Below, in pieces: positions 24,016-62,477 of a stretch of DNA of 64,000 nt; the stretch's first letter is position 1; each line of letters begins with the position of its first letter. A program made the translations under genes and the position numbers. The notes below the pieces were generated by a model, which did no database searches, had not been told where the DNA came from, and was given only the letters and a program-made list of their open reading frames with translations. Source of the stretch: Morinoia aosen (Eukaryota > Arthropoda > Malacostraca > Amphipoda > Talitridae); assembly GCA_030386875.1 (NCBI GenBank), contig CM059562.1, forward strand, positions 71,298,201 to 71,362,200, read 5' to 3'.

Positions 24016-24250
24016 GTGCTGTCCTTGGGTGCAGATGTCATCCCAGAATACAAGCTCCAGTCTCCTCACATCCACAAGTGGACCATACTGCACTACTCCC
24101 CCTTCAAAGCCGTGTGGGACTGGATCATCCTCATCTTAGTGATATATACGGCTATTTTCACCCCTTACGTCGCTGCCTTCCTTCTCAACGAAGATAAAAA
24201 TCCCACCAAGCAGCCCTACACAGACCCTCTCTGGGTCATAGAATTATTAG
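24016..24250 (+). CDS. sei: ERG channel exon: pre-S1 linker and S1
   Basis: Seen: the acceptor ttgcag and donor TTAG/gtgagt bound a 235-nt exon entering in phase 0 and leaving in phase 1. It starts [15 protein letters not shown], then [15 protein letters not shown], then a hydrophobic S1 helix ([21 protein letters not shown]) split here as [10 protein letters not shown] and [10 protein letters not shown], and ends in a short extracellular S1-S2 loop with [12 protein letters not shown] at the start of S2. Known: LGADVxPEYKLQ and [13 protein letters not shown] are signatures of the ERG (Kv11) branch of KCNH channels, not EAG or ELK. The exon begins exactly at VLSLGAD, the junction where vertebrate ERG1a and the short ERG1b N-termini join the common body. 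No PAS-domain exon was found upstream, so the real N-terminus is probably outside the window. The last base G joins TG of the next exon to give Val. Confidence 0.95.
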
Positions 24251-28657: not shown

Positions 28658-28836
28658 TGGACATCATGTTCATGGTGGACATTGCCATCAACTTCCGGAC
28701 GACGTACGTGAACCAGCAGGACGAGGTGGTGTCCGACCCCCTCAAGATCGCCCTGCACTACCTGAGAGGGTGGTTCATCATTGACATGGTGGCGGCCATC
28801 CCTTTCGATCTGCTCATCGTCGCTGATAATGAAAAG
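28658..28836 (+). CDS. sei: ERG channel exon: S2, S2-S3 loop and S3
   Basis: Seen: acceptor cacgcag, donor GAAAAG/gtatgc; phase 2 in (TG completes Val with the preceding G), phase 0 out. It encodes [18 protein letters not shown] (S2, with the acidic residues D in VDIMF and VDIAINF that face the S4 arginines), the cytoplasmic loop [18 protein letters not shown], then [19 protein letters not shown] (S3). It ends ADNEK, the start of the extracellular S3-S4 loop. Known: INFRTTYV and [16 protein letters not shown] are invariant through ERG/EAG/ELK channels. The 179 nt are markedly GC-richer than the flanking introns, as are the other exons. Confidence 0.96.
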
Positions 28837-46009: not shown

Positions 46010-46335
<326 letters not shown>

Positions 46336-48600: not shown

Positions 48601-49554
48601 TCCAGCTATCTTTCCCTCGTAATTTAAACACGGTTCCTGCAAATGAATCCTCCGGGGGTCACTGACGGTATTTTCATTATGCTGATGACCGACCTGCAGT
48701 CACTAACCCAATTTTTATAAATACGTAATGAGAGCTAAATGAAGGCACGATCCAGTTAATGTTTGCTAATTTCTAAATTGCCTACTACAATTGACTTGAA
48801 ATTTTAATTTAATATTGAAATTCAGTTTAACCCATTCCAGGAAACGTGTTAGGCCTCACGGATTTTCTTGTTCGTCTTCAATTGAGGCCACAAACATTAC
48901 AGCGAGTAGACGTGTCTGCAAACCGTTGTCATGGACATGGTGACAGAACATTTCACTCTCTGACACCAATGATGCAAACATTCTTTTGAAATTGATTCTT
49001 TGACTTTCATTAGCTTTGTTTTTCACTGAAGGTTTTTTCCATTGATCCCTCGATTGATTTATTTACTCGTAAAATGAAAATGAAAATTTAGCTCATCAAG
49101 TAATGGCAGAATCAATTTAGATGACCTTTTAAGCAGCCGTGCACACAATGGCTAGTGAGGTGAGTAACTAGTTTACCGCCTGACATCCACACACGGACTC
49201 TGGATACGCCATCTGGTCCTGTCGATTATGATCAGGCTCATAAATCCACGAGTAATTTATTAAATGTTAGTTAAAGTGCAAATGTTATTTGAAGAGCTGT
49301 TACGAAAGATTGCAGAGGAGTGCGTCATTAAGGGTGAGTCAATATATTAATTAGGCTCTCTCATGATGCCTTTCCCTTCCCTTACGGTCTCGCAGAATAA
49401 AGGTAGCTCACTGGGACATGGGCTGATTGTGCTTGCGCACTCCACGGGGGACGTAGGATAAACAACAAGCTTAGGTTAATCAGGTTTGGCTATCCTAAAC
49501 CAGGCAGACTGGTTCCGCACAAGGATACTGTTAGGTTACTCCCGCTTGAGATAG

Positions 49555-49800
49555 GCCTTCAGGACTTCTATTTTTCGTGTCCACTTTGATTCTTTAAATG
49601 CTCATGATTACTCCGCTATTTCTTTGTTTTTTTTCCTCTTCCATTCTAACTTGTGATTTCAATGTTCAGGGTAACCTGCAGTGTGTGGAAACACATAGAT
49701 TCCCCGTTTTCTACAGTCTATGCGAAACGGCCCATCTTTTCGTTCTCTTGGGATCGCTTTTGTTATTTTCTACGAAGTCATAAACTATTATATGATCTGT
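49555..49800 (+). repeat. Possible eroded R1 copy
   Basis: Seen: TTCCATTCTAACTTGTGATT, ACACATAGATTCCCC, CTTTTCGTTCTCTTGGGATCGC resemble the middle and right of R1; a similar faint match lies at 21760-21830 (CCCTTCCTAACTTGTCGTTT). Divergent, so tentative. Confidence 0.4.
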
Positions 49801-49918
49801 GCACGTTAAGGTGTCGCCTTGAAGCTTTTCCCCCACGGGTTACGTGCAAACCTAACTTGAAAATGTCACGTCTCGTGTCCGCATCGTGAATAACAATAAT
49901 TATTATCTTTCCACTCAG

Positions 49919-50039
49919 GTATGCCATTGGGTCTGCAGAGAGACCTCGCCTTGAACACAAGATAGGTTGGTTGGACCACCTCGCTAACGCCACCCACCAG
50001 CCCTACACTTCTGATAACAAAGGAGGGCCTTCTTTAAGG
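49919..50039 (+). CDS. sei: ERG channel exon: end of S5 and extracellular turret
   Basis: Seen: acceptor tttccactcag, donor TTAAGG/gtgagt; phase 2 in, phase 0 out, 121 nt. It completes Trp, then YAIGSAERPRLEHKIGWL, DHLANATHQPYTSDNKG and GPSLR. Known: ERG channels have an unusually long S5-P linker (turret) with an amphipathic helix; WL(H/D)xL is part of that helix, and the turret influences C-type inactivation and toxin binding. The NAT sequon sits where hERG carries its N-linked glycan (NSS), an inference from alignment by eye. This exon leaves in phase 0 and feeds directly into any one of the three pore exons. Confidence 0.95.
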
Positions 50040-51949
50040 GTGAGTTGCCAGGCCCAGCTGCTGCTACAGCAGTCATTTGCAATTCCTTGCTCTCAAAATG
50101 ATCTTTCTGTTTAAAGGATCATTTCTTATTTGAAATTTGCCGAGCGAGTGATTCATCTTCGATTATTTCTGATTGCTACGTCAGTATAAGTTTTAACTTT
50201 GAAATATGGCAACATAAACATTGAAATTAACTTAACAATGTCTGAGGGCATGAGAATCCATCATTTATTTTACTTACGGTTTTGCATTCCGTTAGGAATC
50301 TACCTAAAATGAGCGTTAAGTTGTCCCATAGGAACGCACCATCCAATTTCCTGACTTGGCCTACAACCTTAGAATGAATTTCTCTACACCATCAGGTCAA
50401 AAAACTGAAATTTCAAGAGAGCAATTTGAGGCTTGATCACTAAATCTTATATTTTTGTCTAATCTCATGCAAAGAGCTTATTCGTCTCCCGAGAGCCGGC
50501 CTAAAATATACGAAGTTGAGTTTGAGTAAAAGATTTTTTTTAATTTGCTGGTTGCCTTCTCGTAAGCAGCCTCATCTCTTCAATAGCTTCTCAAAGCTCG
50601 CATTTCATTGCAAAATCAATTTTATTGGGAGAGATGAAAATTTTATATTCGAGCATAATTAGGGTCTTGACGTGTTCGGAAACATTCATAAAGGAACTTT
50701 CGCACGAGTGGATCTACGCTGAATATTTCAAGCCACAGCTTATTCTCAAAATGCGAGTATTAAGAAAACTAAAATCTTCATTGCATAATTTCATAAAAAT
50801 TCTTCACGAAAAGTTCTTCGGCGAATCTTTAAATGATTTAACAATTTCCAACGAATAATGACATGAATAATTTATAGGTTGAAGGCTTTCATGAGTTATG
50901 TCCTCTGTATTATTTCGGAAAAGTTTCAATGTTGAAGTTCACAATCCTTCCATGACTAGTTCGTCAGCTCAATGGAATAATAGTTCAAAATTTTAAATTT
51001 TACATCATAATTATCTTGGACTGCGAGGCTCCTAATACATTACGAAGTGGTTTATCATACGTTTTTATACATAGAGATGCTGGATTAATGACATCAATTA
51101 TAAAATTGTAAGCTTAGTCTTTTGTCTTACTTAGTCCGCAAAAATTGAAAGCAGACCTTGATGGATTTGCATTCATGCGAATATATTTTCCTGCCCGGAC
51201 CACTGACTGCTTTGAGCACAGTTCTCAACTTAGTTTGGAGTTCATTTTTGACGATTTAAAAAATCATGAAAAGCTTACTTCTCAATGAAGTCGAAATACA
51301 AATAAAAACGATATTTAAATTGCTGACTGAAAGTTCCTCAGTTGTAAATTTGAAAATGTTATTGAACGTAGCTGCCACACAATGCCTCAATTTATAAGCA
51401 AATCTCGAATTCTTCTGTACACTTCCTTGTGATCACAAGATCGTGAATTGTTTATTTGCTCTACAGTTCTTCGGGTGTATTACTGCGGTTGTAGATATGT
51501 TTTCCAGCAAACAAAACGACATCTTTACAATTCGTGAGTGGAAAACATGCCTTTACCAAAATACCCTGCTTTGAGTATACTATTGTACACCAAATTTTTA
51601 TGAAAAATATTATTCATGTGTTTTTATTAAATTTAAAATACAAACATACTTCCAGGATTAATTTTCAACATAAATTTAATACTTCTAAAGTCAGTTTCTT
51701 ATATAGGCAATGATTTAACTAATTTGGGAAAGCTAACCTTCCCTATTTTTCAAACATTTTACTGCTACTATTTTTATCTTCGTTTGAACTTGCAGACTTA
51801 ACGAGCATGTGTCGCGTTAGGAGAATATTTTCCCAAGTGTCATTTTTTTCACGAACTAAACAACGTACGATCTAGCCGTGGCTTTCATCTTACAACGTTC
51901 AGACGCTCTTCTAAGTTTTTATTTCATTATCGGGTGAGACATGGCAAAA

Positions 51950-52570
51950 TCAGATTGTCATGAGGCTGAAGGCTCCAAAATCTACGATGTAACACTTAAC
52001 ACCTGTTCAATGTACTTGGAACTCGTGAACATACTCTGAAAGAGGTTGCTGTCGAACTTTTCGTACTTCAAGATTATGCAGCAAACCATCACAGCAACAG
52101 TTGCACGAATCCCAGAAGTCATTGTGAAAGTTGGCGAGAGAAAATAATGTTAGTAAAAAATTCATGGAAGACATTGTTGAAAAAGATAGAATTTCCACCA
52201 AAGATTTCCGTTTCAGTGGTCACTCCTGCGTTTCCAGCTCCTTCCAAATAATTTAAGCTGTCTCAAAGTAAGAAGTTTAATAAACCTAAAGAGGAAAGCG
52301 CAGATGTTAGTCACAAGAGTTAAAGCGGGAGAAAAATCTTGAAGATCGTGTATAAAAAATTGAGCTCGTCAGAATTCAAGTTTCAAAAGCGTCAGGCGTT
52401 AACAAAGCTCCGAAAAAACGACTAGCGAAGGCGAAAGTTCTCTCAAGAAGTCCAAGGCAAGTACGCTCATGGCCGACATCATGTTTTCTGATGAGAAACT
52501 TTTTCCTGTTGAGTCGAAGTTCAACTGCCAGAATGACTGAGTGGTTTTAAAGTCCTATATAACGTCCCAA
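51950..52570 (+). mobile_element. Tc1/mariner-like transposase relic
   Basis: Seen: around 52420-52540 broken frames give KRLAKAKVLSRSPR, then FSDEKLFPVESKFNCQND (with a frameshift between), which fits the block around the second catalytic Asp of mariner/Tc1 transposases (VFSDEKxFxVExxxNxQNDRV). Upstream about 52030-52330 looks like the N-terminal part (EHTLKEVAVELF) but is weaker. Many stops; dead. It lies in the intron before pore exon A. Confidence 0.6.
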
Positions 52571-53113
52571 ATTCTCTAAAAATATTCCGAACAATAATCC
52601 GTCTCGAAAATGATGCACAGTGATTTTTTCCAAAATAAAAAATTGCATTTGATTTTTGTTCTAAGAATTGCTGAAGCGAACTCAAATTTGTATATTGAAT
52701 AAATACTGACTCCTACCCTTGCGGAAGCGAAAACGCATTTCAAAAACCAGCGTGTTCACTTTTTAACAAAAAAATGCAGCTCATCACACGTCAATAGGGC
52801 CATTTTTATAAGATTCTAAGGCTAGGAAACATTTCTCATACCGTTTCCCAATCTAAACTAGTTATATTGTTTTCCGTTGCTCCATACCAGAATCTGATGT
52901 CGATGCTTCTTCTGCACAACTGAAATTTTGAAACGCTTCATTCAGAAACGCAAGGAAAAAATTGCTCAATACATGTTTCAATGTGTAGAGATTTCTCGAG
53001 GCTGGCTGAATGTTGTAATTCAGGCTATGAAAGGGATGATTGAATAATAATAGTCTCGCTGTAAATATAAGCCTAAACTAAAGAATATATCTTAGCTTTT
53101 TTCCAAGGGTTAT

Positions 53114-53153
53114 GTACTACAAATCTATCTTTAGTCGCTCACATAAAGGTCTC
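53114..53153. promoter_or_regulatory. Intronic 40-nt repeat, copy upstream of pore exon A
   Basis: Seen: 40 nt beginning GTACTACAAATC and ending AAAGGTCTC that recur at 55630-55669 with one difference; flanks do not match. It lies 1075 nt upstream of exon A. A role in mutually exclusive splicing is a guess; a transposon fragment is equally possible. Confidence 0.35.
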
Positions 53154-54228
53154 TCTGACATTAGTCATTCGTCATTATTGTCATGCCTAACAGTGTTAGA
53201 ATAAGCTGTTCATCAAATCATTCGTACGGAAACTAAACAATTATGTTATCGCTATTGTTTTCATTGTAAAATGTATTCTCGCTTTTTGAAGTTCTCGTTT
53301 ACGTTCATTTAAGGAATCCTAAAAAAAAGTGTGATCCTTTTTTGGGACTATTTTGTACGCCTTTGCGCGGTAAGAACTTAATTTACAAATAAAGATAATT
53401 CATTTTTCATTTGCTCTAAAGTACTTTTTGTTAAATTATTCATGATGTACACACATTGATCGCAAGGTCACCTGCAGCTAGAGTTGCTGTTGCGGTTTTT
53501 GGTCATTGTGTCAAGTGTTGAAAAAATTATGTATTTTTCTTGCGTTTTTTTTTATCAAGTTTTAGCGTTGCCTTACGCTAATAGACGACTCTGTTTCTTT
53601 TTCTCATTGGAATAGTGAACACAGTCAAACGTTTAAATGTCTTGATACTTTTTATTCATGGACGCTATAAGCAAAAATTTTCCAGCACTGACTTGAAATC
53701 TTTTCAACTCTAGATACACTCCAATGCAGTTCAACATCATTTTTTGTCAGGGCTGAGGCTCTTGTGCTCAAAATAAATCATTAGGCAGCTGAGAATCAAA
53801 GTTTTAGCTGCCGCTTTGCATTGTAGATGAGCATCGATTTTTCTCCATTAAATTTTATGCTTTTCTTCTGAAACCAATTTTATCGATCGTCCCCCTGCGG
53901 CATCCACCCCTCCAGCCCCCATCTCTACGCTGTAAGCACTTCAAGCTTTCCAAGATACCGGATTATGGATGGGCCTTGTTTGTAGCTCCTTCTATAGAAA
54001 ATTTAATTTAAGCTACCGGTTTGGCCAGCAAACTTTCAGAGTCCTCATTCATATATTTTGAAATTGATGAGTTTTATTATGATCGTTTTATGTACACGCA
54101 CCAATTTTCTATCAGAGTACATTACAAATCGATTTATGAAAAGCCCAACACATCCTCTATATAGTTGAATCTTCGGAGTAAACTCCGTAGAGTTCTAATT
54201 TCGTCTCAAATTCAAATTGTCTTCGCAG

Positions 54229-54349
54229 TCATGCTACATCACAGCGCTCTACTTCACGTTCTCTTCCTTAACATCCGTGGGGTTCGGTAATGTGTCACCC
54301 ACCACCAATATCGAAAAAATATTCACGATATTTTTCATGATGCTAGGCT
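54229..54349 (+). CDS. sei: ERG channel alternative pore exon A (SPTTN type)
   Basis: Seen: acceptor ttgtcttcgcag, donor GGCT/gtgagt; 121 nt, phase 0 in and 1 out. It encodes [11 protein letters not shown] (pore helix), [10 protein letters not shown] (selectivity filter GFG), [11 protein letters not shown] (outer mouth) and TIFFMMLG (first half of S6); the last T plus CG of the 58141 exon gives Ser-Leu-Met-Tyr. Known: hERG reads [17 protein letters not shown] here, so A keeps the Ser-Pro pair at 631/632. A shares 36 of 40 residues with B and 27 of 40 with C. Unlike B it has Cys at its second residue and Ile where B and C have Ala after the Asn/Asp. It is one of three mutually exclusive versions. 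Confidence 0.93.
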
Positions 54350-54942
54350 GTGAGTGGGAGTTCCTTGTTGTTGCCGATCTGTACGAACCACACAGTAGAT
54401 CGCTCTGGTTCACTCTGTGTTCGTTGGCAGTGACACAATCACTATATCTATTTGATGTTGTATTTTTATATTATTTACGTGTAATTTTATAATACAAATT
54501 AAATGTGTATTTGATGAACTTGTTGTTGCCACTCGTATAATACAAGTTGTGTTTGGAAGGATGCTAACTCTGCAATTATTTCTCTCACTTCATAACAGGG
54601 TAAATACCTAAAAATACATATTCCTTAATTTCTTTAAGCCTACATTTTACGACACTTTATCAAGAAATATTTTATTAAAATAGAGGTAAATCAGCCTCAT
54701 GTGATTCATTCGTATAATTTGAAAACATTCTCGTACCAAAAACATAAGGTCACGCTCTTTTCTCAATCATCAATAACAGATTTTTAATGCACCTCGAAAT
54801 AAAAATGTTCCATATGTGTTCATATGCTATTTTAACAAAAATCATCATTATAATTCACACACACAAGGTTGAACTCTTCTTTTCCATTTGATACTCAAAA
54901 TGCACAAAACTTCTTTTTTTTCTCGACATTTGGCCGGGGCAG

Positions 54943-55063
54943 TCGCGCTACTTGACCGCTCTGTACTTCACTTTCTCCTCCCTCACCTCCGTCGGGTTCG
55001 GTAACGTGTCACCGACTACAAACGCCGAAAAAATCTTCACAATTTTCGTCATGATGCTTGGGT
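54943..55063 (+). CDS. sei: ERG channel alternative pore exon B (SPTTN type)
   Basis: Seen: a T-rich tract 15-30 nt upstream and acceptor cggggcag, donor GGGT/gtacgc (weaker than those of A and C); 121 nt, phase 0 in and 1 out. It encodes [32 protein letters not shown] and TIFVMMLG. The pore helix and GFG filter are identical to A; the four differences from A are Arg for Cys, Leu for Ile, Ala for Ile and Val for Phe. It starts only 593 nt after exon A ends. Codon usage differs from A at many third positions (Ser TCC TCC ... TCC against TCT TCC ... TCC), so both look maintained by selection rather than a fresh copy. Likely the closest to a standard ERG pore. Confidence 0.93.
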
Positions 55064-57019
55064 GTACGCTTCAGAAATTTCTAGCGTTTAAACTTGACGT
55101 AGGCTATTTTTCATGCAGCGAACGGCAATTTGAAACGTGGGCTGCAAATTGTCCGTGCTCGTGGTTCGCTCGTATTGTAACGTAACGTACATGCTAACTG
55201 CTGTTCCACTGACGTTGAGGGTAACCGTAAACTTTAAAAACATCGTAGCTTGTTTTTTGCTAACCACATATTTGTACTATACCCTCACATTCTCATTTTT
55301 ATTAACCGCAGTTCCTTTCTGAGAATGTCAACCAAGGCAGAGTATCTGCTAACTCAAGTAGAACGTTTTGTCCCTCAATTGTGCCGTTTCTAATTACAAG
55401 CTACGAGTTATGGACGTACGAAGTATTGTTCTAATATGCTTGTACAGGCTCACAACAAAATTTCATGTCAAAATTTCTGGCGGAGAATAAAAAACACAAT
55501 CCTCTTCTGCACACAGCTCTCAGGAAACAGCTTTATCTCGGTTTAAATGGAGACAAGTGCACGATGAATATATTTTAGATACGATTTTAAATATTTTCCT
55601 CTGGTGTTGGCTTATAACAAACTTTACTCGTACTACAAATCTATCTTTAGTCGCTTACATAAAGGTCTCACAATTTTTATGGAACAGTAATCTCACTGTT
55701 CAACATTTTCGGAATAAAAACCTATCCCATTATGGCTTTACTCCCCCAATGTGGGCGCGCATCTTGCACGTCATCAATACGAAGCTGCTTTTCACTGCCG
55801 ATCTTCTGCGCATTATTATTGCGTATTTTACGGTTTCTTAAGGCGAGGTCCGGTTTTATCTGGCGTCTGAAGTGCGGTGGCGCTGTTCAGACGTTCTGGC
55901 GAGACTCGTAAACTCGGAAAGTTTCCACTTCGTGGGATTTATTATTATTTTATTGAGGATTTCTGCCCGAGAACGGGAGCTCTGCGAGGCAACTTGACCC
56001 GCGCGGTCCTCTACAATGGGTCCTTCATGTTCGGAGTTCTTTAATATTTTAATTTCTGAGAGAAATTTCGTTCTTCAAATGCCGACCTAGTCTCGCAAAT
56101 TGAAAAGAAGTTTTCGAATTATTTTTTTCGGGACTTTTTAAAAAGATATTTGCATATCAGAAAATATTCGAAAGAATTGAGTTTTCTTAGGACATCATGT
56201 AATGAAGAGGGATTTTTTATCATTTCATTTGAAAATGAAAACTTGATGGCAGCACTTCTATAGAAGAGCATAGTTCTAACGTGAACATAGTGACGTTTTT
56301 AAAACTTTGCCAATATTATTTAAATTGTTCATTCTCAAGCATTGATTTTGAGGGAAATTTGAGAATAAACTCATTTAATTTTGCAAAATTTTTGATTGTT
56401 AATGGTTAAAATTGCCACGAATCAAAAATTGAACTTTTCATGCTATTGCTAAATTTATTCGTTTTTCACTTGTACTCCAAAACGTCGTATCCTTTCACTA
56501 TTCTCATTTCAATATCGTTAGAGCATCCAAAAATGTTAGAAAAAGTTACTCGTCAGCTGAGCTAACTATATTCTACATCCCTTAACCATAACGTTACAAG
56601 GGATGGGTAAACGGTGAATTTAAGAGTTTTACTTTTCAATTGCTACAAACCTTTTGAAACATTGAACCTGGCAAGTTATATGAAAAAACTAATCGCTTTA
56701 GTGCTCATTTCAGACTAAAAAACTTATCTTCCTTTAATCACTTTTAACATCTCACAGTATACTTATAAAAAACGTTTTTGTCCCAAGTTTGGTTACATTC
56801 AAGCTTTGCTGGTCACTTTTTTTAGTCAAGCCACTTCAGGGGCTTTCGTTTCGCTTTTCATTCTCCCGTTGATGTCTTACTCCAATTCTCCAATGTCAGG
56901 CTGCAGTCAAACGGCTGTGCCGTACATCGCATTTGTAGCGAGGTGCAGCAATGACTCTGTGTTTGGGTAACCTTCTTCGTGCCAGTCTGTGTCACCGTGT
57001 CTGTATCATTTGTCCACAG
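55064..57019. other. Intron between pore exons B and C
   Basis: 1956 nt. It contains the second 40-nt repeat copy and a GC-richer patch at 55850-56030 with no recognised function. No pore motif. Confidence 0.6.
55630..55669. promoter_or_regulatory. Intronic 40-nt repeat, copy between pore exons B and C
   Basis: Seen: same 40 nt as 53114-53153 except T for C in the middle; 1350 nt upstream of exon C. Same orientation. No equally good copy was seen between exons A and B. Confidence 0.35.
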
Positions 57020-57140
57020 GCCAAGTACGTAACGTCACTGTACTTCACGTTTAGCAGTCTCACGAGCGTAGGTTTCGGTAATGTCGCAGCGAACACTGAT
57101 GCCGAGAAGATCTTTACGATATTGGTGATGCTTGTAGGAT
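57020..57140 (+). CDS. sei: ERG channel alternative pore exon C (AANTD type)
   Basis: Seen: acceptor atttgtccacag, strong donor GGAT/gtaagt; 121 nt, phase 0 in and 1 out. It encodes [32 protein letters not shown] and TILVMLVG. The outer mouth differs from A and B: the Ser-Pro after GFGNV is Ala-Ala and the Asn two residues later is Asp. Known: in hERG, Ser631 at this place is needed for normal fast C-type inactivation and Ser631Ala impairs it; ELK (Kv12) channels, which mostly lack such inactivation, have [12 protein letters not shown], close to exon C. Serine codons here are AGC, AGT and AGC where A and B use TCN, a switch needing two steps, which points to an old duplication under selection. 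It shares 29 of 40 residues with B. Confidence 0.93.
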
Positions 57141-58140
57141 GTAAGTAGATTCATTTGATGCTCGTTCTTCCGATCAACTTCTTGAGTTTGTGTTGAACTC
57201 TTGAGAATCGTTTCAGTATTGCCGTATTTTTCATGTTTTTTAAGCTTGCTTCTCTTAAATGGACTGAGGTTAGTTTATCATATAGATCTGTTTGGTTTAT
57301 TTTTGTGCATGGTAATTTAGTGTTCTTCCTCATTTGTTAATTAATTGTAGCTTGTCTTCACCCTCCTGACGTTATATTTATATTTGCTTATTCTTAGTTT
57401 ATCCATTTTGTATGCTTCCCATACTTCTGTTTTTCACCTTTCCTTCATTTTCACTTCCTCTTCTTACATTGTATTGGAAAAATCAGATGTACGCTTAGCT
57501 GCGCGTATATCACAACTTCAATTTAATGGGTGTTGTACATTATTTCGTGCGATTTTTTAGCCTGATCTATTTCATTTTTCTTTCATCGCGTCCTGAATCG
57601 TTTTGGATTATTTTTTGCTCGTGTTTATTTCATCTGAATAACTTGTTGCATGTCTTGCTCACCGTTGACACGTAAGTTGAATATAATGTATTTCATTACA
57701 GAGTTGTGCTTATCAGATCGTTTGGTTTCTTTTTCGATTAGTACTCTGTAGTCTGTTTTACTTTAGCACAATTTGTTTTTTATACCTATAGAGATCTTGT
57801 GTTAAATGTTTTGTACTAATTTTTTCGGCCGATTTTTAGCATGGAGTTTTCCCTTAAATATAGATTATAATATTGTTCCTTATTTTTGATCTCTTAAGAT
57901 TTATAAAATGTGAATTTCAATTACATTGTTTGAAAAATTGAACTTCAGGAAAATTGAATAAATTCCTTATACTAGATGATATTTCGAACTCTTTCACGCA
58001 GTGAATTTAAATAACTTTCCAATTTTCAAACCTTTTCCTGGTTAATGAAACATCATTCTTATAAGTATCTTATCATTAAATAACTTTTTTAAATTAGATA
58101 ACTTATTTCATTTCGTAAATAACTCGCACACTCCTTTCAG
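57141..58140. other. Intron between pore exon C and S6 exon
   Basis: 1000 nt, A/T-rich, with no element seen beyond a normal acceptor. If a common docking site for competing RNA pairing exists downstream of the cluster, it would be here; I could not identify one by eye. Confidence 0.6.
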
Positions 58141-58301
58141 CGCTGATGTACGCCAGCATCTTCGGTAACGTGTCGGCGATCATCCAGCGGCTGTACGCCG
58201 GCACTGCCCGCTACCACACGCAGTTCATGCGCGTCAAGGAGTTCATACGTTTCTATCAAATACCCAATCCGCTCAGACAAAGAATGGAGGAATATTTTCA
58301 G
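58141..58301 (+). CDS. sei: ERG channel exon: end of S6 and start of C-linker
   Basis: Seen: acceptor actcctttcag, donor TTTCAG/gtgaga; phase 1 to 0 (CG completes Ser with T from whichever pore exon is used). It encodes [13 protein letters not shown], the gating half of S6, then [35 protein letters not shown] and MEEYFQ of the C-linker. Known: the Tyr and Phe of MYASIF match hERG Tyr652 and Phe656, which line the inner cavity and bind many drugs; [14 protein letters not shown] is an ERG C-linker signature. This exon is common to all three pore versions. Confidence 0.96.
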
Positions 58302-59512
58302 GTGAGAGAGGGTAGAATGGACGTGTTTTCACGTTATAATGAATAAAACCTGTTGTACTGGGATTTCTTTGCTTAATTGGAATATTTTGTTACAATTTTA
58401 TGGCTTGAATCAGATGTGTTTTAGAGTGTGAGTTCGTAAGTTGTGGCTGAGAAATTATTTATACAGTTCGTTGAGATTCAGTTATAGAAAACTTATCCCT
58501 AGTACCACATCGATTTACTAAAGAAAGAAATCCCTCAGTCCCAAATAAAACGTTTATGTTCAGTTACTAGATCACCGATGGACACATTTCATTGGTGAAA
58601 TTGTCCATGTCTCAAATAGCTTAAATTGCAACAAAAAGCTCGACTTGTCTGCCGGTTTGAGCTGCCTCATGGACACGCTGCCTTCCATGATGAAATACTT
58701 TTAGTTTAAGAAGCGTGAACTAGATGAATTATAATGTTTATTCTTGTTCGTTTGCACCGTTCTGCAGTATAATTCATTAAATTTTTATCAGTTGGGACTA
58801 AGAAGTTTATATCCTTTGAGAAATTTCATAACAAATGTTAGGTAGTCCAGCTCAATTTGTTGCTCTGTAGAATGGGTTCTTGAAATAACATTTTCAAATA
58901 TAAATTTGCCCTAGTATAGAATAGTTTCCTGAAATTTCATTCTCAGAATCAAGATACTATCTTCACAAAATGCGTTGGTGTCGAGCGACAGGAATTAATA
59001 ATGTCAAATTCAGATTTTTTTCTATAACTGAGCTTTAAAATTAACATATATAATATTCTCGGACAATACTACCTGTGTAAATATTAATGTGTGCTTTTAA
59101 TAACAATATTACCAGAAATATGAACTGCGTTTTTCTAATAATTTCAATTCATGATAATAGCTTCAGGTATGCCAGTAAAGAGGAAATCAGAGTCATTCAA
59201 GATTCGGACTGTTGAAATAACAACTTGGACTCCACTAGCTCAGATCACCCTTCCATACTCCTGAGTCTCCTCCTGTGTCTGTACACCCACATTGATGAAA
59301 ATCATCCAAGTCCTGAATTTGTGGCGACCTGCAAATCATCTAAAGAAATATAAAATTTGATACCAGTGACCAAAGGTATCCAGTTTTAACTTCGCGCCAC
59401 GTGTAGGCCATGTGAAGAATTACCAGCCTTAATACATAAGGTATCCATCAACTCTGGAAACTGGATTGCGAAAAAAGAGGCAACATTCTAATGTATCTTG
59501 TGATGTTTGCAG

Positions 59513-59661
59513 CACGCGTGGTCGTACACAAACGGCATCGACATGGGTGCCGTGCTGAACATGTTCCCTGAGTGCCTGCAAGCGGACATCAGCTTGCACC
59601 TCAACGAGAGCTTGTTCCAGTCGTGCCCGTCTTTTGCGGGCGCTACACCTGGTTGCCTTAG
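59513..59661 (+). CDS. sei: ERG channel exon: C-linker
   Basis: Seen: acceptor gtttgcag, donor CTTAG/gtgaga; phase 0 in and 2 out, 149 nt. It encodes [50 protein letters not shown]. Known: [15 protein letters not shown] and [14 protein letters not shown] are the ERG C-linker helices that join S6 to the cyclic-nucleotide-binding homology domain and form the tetrameric gating ring. Its 5' splice site is immediately followed by a minisatellite whose units repeat the donor-like GTGAGA motif (see 59662-60040). Confidence 0.95.
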
Positions 59662-60040
59662 GTGAGACTTGGTTGTCGTGAATGAGACCGAGTTGTCTAA
59701 CGCGAGACGCGATTATTTTCCGTGAGACGTGGTTGTCTTACGTGAGACGTGGTTATTATACGTGAGACTGGGTTATTTTACGTGAGACGTGATTATTTCA
59801 TGTGAGACGGGGTTATTTCACGTGAGACGTGGTTATTTTACGCGTGAGACGTGGTTATTTTACGCGTGAGACGTGGTTATTTCACGCGTGAGACGTGGTT
59901 ATTTTACGTGAGACCAGCTTATTGTGAGTGAAACTAGGTTACTCTAGGTAAAAGTAGGTTACTTTAGGTGGGATTAGATCACCTTTGGTGGGACTATAGG
60001 TTGTTTTGGTGAGACTAGGTCACTTGATGTGAAACGATAG
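59662..60040. repeat. Minisatellite beginning at a splice donor (GTGAGACGTGGTTATTT units)
   Basis: Seen: starting exactly at the donor of the C-linker exon, about 20-23-bp units of the form GTGAGACGTGGTTATTTTAC repeat about 12-13 times to 59920, then decay (GTGAAACTAGG, GTGGGATTAG, GTGAGACTAGG) to about 60040. Each good unit contains GTGAGA, the same six bases as the real donor. Known: GTGAGA is a usable 5' splice-site core, so the array offers many U1-binding decoys. Confidence 0.9.
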
Positions 60041-60563: not shown

Positions 60564-60706
60564 AGCTCTAAGTATGAAGTTCAGGACGACTCACGCTCCC
60601 CCTGGAGACACGCTCGTCCATAAGGGGGATGTGCTCACCGCCGTCTACTTCATCGCCAGGGGCTCCATTGAAATACTGAAGGACGATGTCGTCATGGCCA
60701 TATTGG
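60564..60706 (+). CDS. sei: ERG channel exon: CNBHD first half
   Basis: Seen: acceptor gtttcccacag, donor ATATTGG/gtgagg; phase 2 in and 1 out. It encodes (R)[48 protein letters not shown]. Known: this is the start of the cyclic-nucleotide-binding homology domain beta roll; [32 protein letters not shown] is the ERG consensus. ERG CNBHDs do not need cyclic nucleotide; their pocket is filled by an intrinsic ligand from the C-terminal end (see next exon). Confidence 0.95.
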
Positions 60707-61164: not shown

Positions 61165-61358
61165 GCAAAAACGACATCTACGGAGAAAATCCGTGCATCT
61201 ACCCGTCCATAGGCAAATCTGCGTGCAGCGTACGCGCGCTGACGCACTGCGACCTGCACCGCATCATGAGAGACGACATTCTCGATGTGCTCGACCTCTA
61301 CCCTGAGTTCCAGGAGACCTTCGCTCGCAACATCGAGATCACTTTCAACCTCAGAGAC
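61165..61358 (+). CDS. sei: ERG channel exon: CNBHD second half with intrinsic-ligand motif
   Basis: Seen: acceptor atattgcag, donor AGAGAC/gtgaga; phase 1 in and 0 out. It encodes [65 protein letters not shown]. Known: VRALTYCDLHKIxRDDLLEVLDMYPEF and ITFNLRD close the CNBHD in ERG; the Phe-Asn-Leu of TFNLRD matches the hERG intrinsic ligand (Phe860-Asn861-Leu862) that occupies the nucleotide pocket. [14 protein letters not shown] differs from hERG (EPLNLYARPGKSNG), a normally variable loop. Confidence 0.95.
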
Positions 61359-62162: not shown

Positions 62163-62401
62163 TTGGTTGTAGTGGATGAGGGTCACGGCACTTGTAGCTC
62201 GACAGTACAACATGCGGTGTCTGAGCAGGAGGAAGTGTCGGGAGTGGACCCAGAAGTGATGCGCAAGAAGCGCGGCTCCCTGATGCGCCACAACTCCCTC
62301 GAGTCCGAGGAGACGCAGGTCAGACGGAACGCGTACCGTCTGCCCAGACGACGGCGAAGGCACGTCAAGAAAAGACGTAGCAGTGAAGATGAATCAGAGT
62401 C
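62163..62401 (+). CDS. sei: ERG channel exon: C-terminal tail, basic region
   Basis: Seen: an open frame in the phase expected after NLRD, ending at donor GAGTC/gtgagt (phase 2 out). It encodes LVVVDEGHGTCSSTVQHAV, then SEQEEVSGVDPEVMRKKRG, SLMRHNSLESEETQVRRN, then a very basic stretch YRLPRRRRRHVKKRRSS, then EDESES. Known: ERG channels have an Arg/Lys-rich segment soon after the CNBHD (hERG RKRKLSFRRR). The start is uncertain: in-frame acceptors without a good pyrimidine tract exist before 62154, 62163 and 62181; a short exon between 61358 and here cannot be ruled out. RHNSLES and RRSSED look like kinase sites, by motif only. Confidence 0.78.
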
Positions 62402-62477
62402 GTGAGTTGTGCTTCTAAGGAGGGTTCAGGCTCACCATTATAATATTGAGAATGCGTGATTCTAATTGAGATTGGGG

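Follow-up and report, generated by a model that had tools for sequence, protein, structure and literature searches.

Can a single ERG potassium channel gene of the amphipod Morinoia aosen exchange part of its pore by alternative splicing? The question is raised by three neighbouring exons, termed A, B and C, which lie in a 64-kb window (the whole stretch of DNA that was analysed) of a 1.99 Gb genome assembly consisting of 29 contigs. The three are most probably mutually exclusive, functional pore exons, a reading deduced from sequence to which we assign a probability of roughly 0.86. According to this explanation, tandem duplication would have turned the pore exon of a malacostracan ERG gene (KCNH2/6/7-type) into a three-exon cluster, and each transcript would include one of the three between its turret and S6 exons. 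The actual splicing of A, B and C in Morinoia aosen, its tissue regulation and the electrophysiology of the resulting channels are what we infer from the evidence described here.

The three exons belong to a KCNH gene of the ERG type, which is on the + strand. A protein joined from turret, pore (exon C) and S6 was compared with the sequences of solved structures, and the six best matches were all KCNH2 (first E-value 7.5e-63), followed by KCNH1 (9.7e-34). For turret, SVGFGN filter and S6, KCNH2 reached 213.9 bits vs 119.8 for KCNH1, so that the gene is nearer to ERG than to EAG. The designation as an ERG potassium channel in the sequence-only reading was thereby borne out, with KCNH1 far behind, and by sequence similarity the gene is assigned to the ERG (KCNH2/6/7, Kv11) type. 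Using tblastn with hERG and Penaeus indicus (P0124) probes, the core of the channel, S1 through the CNB-homology domain, was found in order on the + strand, the exons of the C-linker and of the CNB-homology domain included (Table 1). For the hERG probe, matches were reported at E<0.5; with relaxed probes (E<5), 164 kb around the gene were covered. The PAS domain of this hERG sequence was searched for in the window together with the 60 kb before it and the 40 kb after it, and no match at E<0.5 was obtained. For the decapod ERG models P0125 and P0199-P0201 (up to 1203 aa), no PAS domain is listed. An Rfam search of the window resulted in 0 matches at the gathering threshold. A repeat scan of positions 49000-60000 revealed about ten tandem copies of a 20-bp unit at 59700-59914, just downstream of the C-linker exon.

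Table 1. Exons of the ERG-type gene in the window (percentages are tblastn identities to the probes; a slash marks the exon end at the donor).
Feature	Position	Strand	Evidence
S1 exon, ends in phase 1 (...WVIELL)	24016..24250	+	tblastn, hERG 66%, P0124 73%; donor TAG/GTGAGT
S2-S3 exon (...ADNEK)	28658..28836	+	tblastn, hERG; donor AAG/GTATGC
S4-S5 exon (...LACIW)	46037..46191	+	tblastn, hERG 83%, P0124 94%; donor TTG/GTGCGT
Constant turret exon YAIGSAERPRLEHKIGWLDHLANATHQPYTSDNKGGPSLR, upstream of the cluster, ends in phase 0	49919..50039	+	tblastn, hERG 45%, P0124 77.5%; donor AGG/GTGAGT
Putative alternative pore exon A, Ser at hERG 631	54229..54349	+	translation, splice sites, frame, selection
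Putative alternative pore exon B, Ser at hERG 631, with splice signals weaker than those of A and C	54943..55063	+	translation, splice sites, frame, selection
Putative alternative pore exon C, Ala at hERG 631, 37/40 with P. indicus Ala-type	57020..57140	+	translation, tblastn, frame, selection
Constant S6 exon, downstream of the cluster, enters in phase 1	58141..58301	+	tblastn, hERG 84%; frame test
C-linker exon, decapod M type	59513..59661	+	tblastn, 82% P. indicus type, 70% P. vannamei type
CNB-homology domain exon, first half	60564..60706	+	tblastn, hERG 80%, P0124 88%; splice boundaries
CNB-homology domain exon, second half (start read from the sequence, donor side not fixed)	61165..61358	+	tblastn, P0124 81%
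C-terminal exon, matched part only, EEVSGVDPEVMRKK...	62229..62402	+	tblastn, P0124 46%

The sequence-only reading had placed A, B and C as 121-nt exons of phase 0/1, each coding for one and the same structural unit between a common turret exon and a common S6 exon, and all of this was confirmed. Translation and the AG/GT boundaries agree with the coordinates, and each exon runs from phase 0 to 1 and encodes 40 amino acids corresponding to hERG residues 609-648, i.e., the pore helix, the SVGFGN filter, the outer mouth and the first half of S6. CAG precedes and GT follows each of them (GGCT/GTGAGT for A, GGGT/GTACGC for B, GGAT/GTAAGT for C). All three are open in the coding frame, with 1-4 stops in the other two + strand frames; in exon C, one frame of the - strand is open as well. 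The turret exon and the S6 exon can be joined in frame to A, B and C alike, and the introns from the turret exon via A, B and C to the S6 exon have lengths of 4189, 593, 1956 and 1000 nt.

Eight combinations of pore exons were tried between turret and S6. A, B or C alone leaves the frame open, while none, AB, AC, BC and ABC all run into stops. The upstream boundary of the cluster is in phase 0 and the downstream boundary in phase 1, and for this reason the reading frame permits exactly one pore exon per mRNA, which upholds the frame part of the claim that the exons are mutually exclusive. In the proposed mechanism, inclusion of none, two or three pore exons would cause a frameshift and an early stop, the frame itself would remove the other products, and the wrongly combined transcripts would presumably be degraded by nonsense-mediated decay. 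An early stop in each wrong combination would also suit a cluster that controls expression via such stops and not gating, with exons that are near-neutral in their residues. A Dscam-like docking-site mechanism is not indicated by the introns: the longest exact complements (10-12 nt) were within the range of 60 dinucleotide shuffles for each of the six intron pairs, in a scan confined to the introns of this one gene, which is a weak test.

Among the pore exons, B is the one with the least secure status. Its donor GTACGC lies at the 76th percentile of the 3,671 GTs in the window and is the weakest of ten donors scored, the nine others of the gene ranging from 96.1 to 99.9. The donors of A and C are ordinary, and B reaches 1.5 bits vs 5.7 for A and 8.4 for C. 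The pyrimidine content of the B acceptor is the joint lowest of ten. Such signals would be expected if only C (perhaps A) were used and B were a copy decaying to a pseudo-exon. However, B contains no stop or frameshift, it differs from A by only 4 residues over 20 synonymous changes, and it is closer than A to the pore of a termite (33/40 vs 31/40 residues), so that decay of B is considered unlikely.

The reading as three functional exons agrees with the pattern of substitutions. A and B are sisters (36/40 residues, support 97/97) that differ at 27 of 120 bases and 4 of 40 residues, and 21 of the 27 base differences are at third positions. Between A and C 45 bases and 13 residues differ, between B and C 43 bases and 11 residues. 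When equal numbers of changes were placed at random, 0 of 20,000 placements had as few residue differences in each of the three pairs (mean 17.6 for A/B, 26.1 for A/C and 25.0 for B/C). A, B and C are under purifying selection, and each has been kept as protein. For A/B, dN is 0.081 and dS 1.89; dS amounts to 3.8 for A/C and is beyond estimate for B/C, with synonymous sites near saturation. In the 400-nt intron flanks, the upstream comparison of A and B scored 28 (shuffle maximum 31), a value reached by 4 of 200 simple shuffles, and for the remaining five comparisons the number of shuffles with as high a score was 47-117 of 200. Due to the near-saturated dS and the flanks lacking clear homology, the duplications are taken to be old. 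A duplication in the assembly was rejected since the DNA identity of A, B and C is only 62-78% and no clear relationship is seen between their intron flanks; an assembly artefact or merged haplotypes are extremely improbable.

An origin of A and B from a separate paralogous gene was also rejected, as all three exons are located between one turret and one S6 exon. No fourth or antisense copy of the pore exon was found in 164 kb, where the next matches of the pore probes are fragments with an E-value of 0.3 or worse. Searching the genome with exon C (10 candidates scored, 9 matches listed) yielded A, B and C, one more strong match and five weak ones (E above 1); this search was not exhaustive, because no EAG pore is among the matches listed although one is expected in such an animal. 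The additional strong match (L020, G000:C7:81134349-81134465) was found as one copy about 9.8 Mb away on the same contig, and we take it to be ELK-like on the basis of an ELK motif.

The pore helix FTFSSLTS and the filter SVGFGN are identical in A, B and C, and selectivity should therefore not change. A/B and C differ in residues 631-636 of the outer mouth and in S6. The structure of hERG S631A (5va3) and a wild-type structure differ at exon position 23, which identifies this position as residue 631. Residues 631-635 read Ser-Pro-Thr-Thr-Asn in A and B and Ala-Ala-Asn-Thr-Asp in C. The turret takes part in ERG inactivation; in the window gene the position of hERG N588 is His and the turret differs, so the transfer of effects of hERG mutants is uncertain. 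According to two hERG studies (PMC6992539; PMC6119704), the side chains of N629 and S631 form a ring round the filter, and inactivation is attenuated or lost in S631A; exon C resembles this mutant in having Ala at the same position. What is a mutation in hERG S631A would here be an exon choice inside one gene. A and B would keep the Ser of the N629/S631 ring and C would carry Ala as in S631A, and by analogy fast inactivation is expected for A and B and attenuated inactivation for C. Judging from the positions that differ, the choice between the exons could alter inactivation, the binding of toxins at the outer mouth and the behaviour of S6, and its most likely use would be channels differing in inactivation and outer-mouth pharmacology.

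The distribution of Ser and Ala at this position was recounted using a stricter pattern, as a looser count (211 pattern matches in 202 proteins) had caught stray GFGs; all numbers refer to search matches and not to a sample. Among the matches listed there are 32 arthropod rows, of which 20 have Ala, 11 Ser and one (Portunus) both. Ala was found in 17 of 17 hexapods, two Tachypleus and P. indicus, and Ser in six other chelicerates or pycnogonid, P. vannamei (two), Cherax (two) and Artemia. The other 161 TSVGFGN rows listed comprise 151 with one Ser pore, eight with Ala and two with two filters. These eight Ala rows belong to Dimorphilus and Helobdella (annelids), Macrostomum (flatworm) and five entries without a name. 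Furthermore, three of the six TSIGFGN rows listed, all from snails, have Ala. No vertebrate name occurs among the Ala rows, and the vertebrate rows listed have Ser. Going by these matches, Ala631 is not special to hexapods and crustaceans and may be a mild change.

Protein searches returned the best 120 of 438, the best 120 of 734 and 6 of 6 significant proteins, and the crustaceans among the matches listed are Portunus, Penaeus indicus, P. vannamei (2), Cherax (2) and Artemia. In a 23-row tree with pore and C-linker masked, the window gene and four decapod rows were grouped with a support of 100/100, which places the animal among the malacostracan crustaceans. The decapods without the window gene form a weaker group (88/71) in this tree, in which 14 of 20 inner branches are open, the bootstrap is not quite settled and Portunus fills 44% of the columns. 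A position of the window gene outside the decapods is thus only likely.

The decapod entries are database gene models clustered at 90% identity. P. indicus P0124 and P. vannamei P0199, which come from two species and are not isoforms of one, are identical in S6 (54/54) and the CNBD (112/112) and share 238 of 248 residues from S1 to the turret, vs 30 of 40 in the pore block. The edges of this block coincide with exon edges in the window gene. The neighbouring C-linker block is swapped as well (36/50). This block of 50 aa occurs as two types with identical flanks in the decapod models (P0124, P0125, P0199-P0201, P0005), and pore and C-linker are combined as Ala+M, Ser+T and Ser+M. The comparison suggests a second pair of alternative exons, for the C-linker, in decapods; in the 164 kb around the window gene, no second copy of the C-linker exon was detected by tblastn. 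Cherax carries the Ser-type pore (39/40 with P. vannamei). The Portunus model P0005 combines both types in one predicted protein, an Ala-type pore being followed by the final portion of a Ser-type pore (a partial second pore), and among the 199 relatives listed no other has both letters. Exon C is nearest to the decapod Ala-type (37/40 in P. indicus, 36/40 in Portunus), and, in a comparison on 40 columns, A/B are only possibly orthologous to the decapod Ser-type exon. The Ala-type comes first in Portunus and the Ser-type first in the window gene. Taken from gene models, these data support a similar pore swap in decapods, which would then not be unique to this animal. Two models with repeated pores were kept apart from this comparison. 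P0004, a low-quality KCNH2-like model with two filters, was not used since its copies look like a misprediction. In the partial model P0006 from Rotaria magnacalcarata, turret and pore are together repeated (SKYITALYF..., SRYITALYF...). Either this protein is mispredicted or the pore exons of ERG may have been duplicated independently in the bdelloid rotifer, and the model was left out as evidence for a pore-exon swap.

With regard to near-neutral exons serving expression control, the occurrence of both Ala and Ser at 631 in several animal groups would fit this idea. It is opposed by the fact that exon C shares 37 of 40 residues with the Penaeus Ala-type, yet is separated from A by 13 sites and from B by 11, that the differences lie in S6 and at outer-mouth residues 631-636, and that residue 631 divides the two pore types in decapods, too. 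We therefore regard this explanation as rather improbable. The preferred reading of exchangeable pores can be extended to a splice-controlled inactivation switch, Ser631 vs Ala631, but only as a tentative proposal.

Alternative pore exons have precedents in other channels. The lobster Shaker gene reportedly (J Neurosci 1997) has alternative pore exons giving two functional pore types that differ in gating and drug block. It is comparable as a malacostracan voltage-gated K+ channel gene with alternative pore exons; however, it is a Kv1 gene and not ERG, another exon is concerned and not the S631 position, and it has two functional pore types vs three candidates in the ERG cluster. In the invertebrate NALCN, as described in PMC4436565, mutually exclusive exons (exon 15 or 31) swap part of the pore at the selectivity filter, as is proposed here. 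There the filter ring is changed (EEEE/EKEE/EEKE), whereas in A, B and C SVGFGN is constant and the outer mouth and S6 change. The ERG channels of hexapods (Drosophila seizure kind) and vertebrates belong to the same family and have the same domain order. The hexapod rows (17) have Ala and the vertebrate rows listed Ser, whereas the crustacean window gene carries both. To our knowledge, the vertebrate ERG genes and Drosophila seizure have one pore exon.

In the literature, a survey of tandem duplicated exons stresses ion channels and names no KCNH gene in the passages covered (PMC9741552), and a decapod nervous-system transcriptome study describes three KCNH genes and does not contain the word "isoform" (PMC5096308). 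The passages covered of a paper on Drosophila seizure hold nothing on isoforms or pore (PMC6687100). Alternative pore exons in an ERG channel were not found among the full-text literature matches listed, a coverage outside of which many subscription journals lie. The sequence-only interpretation of exchangeable ERG pore exons is supported, to be refined in two points: decapod gene models already hold both pore types, and alternative pore exons as such are known from other channels (Shaker, NALCN). In the literature searched, none was seen for ERG.

Inactivation is how hERG shapes the cardiac action potential, and its alteration leads to long or short QT syndromes. In the gene described here, a key position of ERG inactivation appears to be under splice control, and the natural pore variants offer ready material for comparative work on how ERG channels inactivate and are blocked by drugs. 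Classic preparations such as the crustacean heart and the stomatogastric neurons make the idea of a switch testable in identified cells. In a broader scheme, to which we give somewhat less than even odds, malacostracans would hold Ser631 and Ala631 in one gene and obtain an IKr-like inactivating or a non-inactivating channel by splice choice, decapods would add an alternative exon for the C-linker, and hexapods would have kept Ala only. If this is true, one locus would give rise to an inactivating and a non-inactivating channel, and in decapods to a splice-coded matrix of pore and gate.
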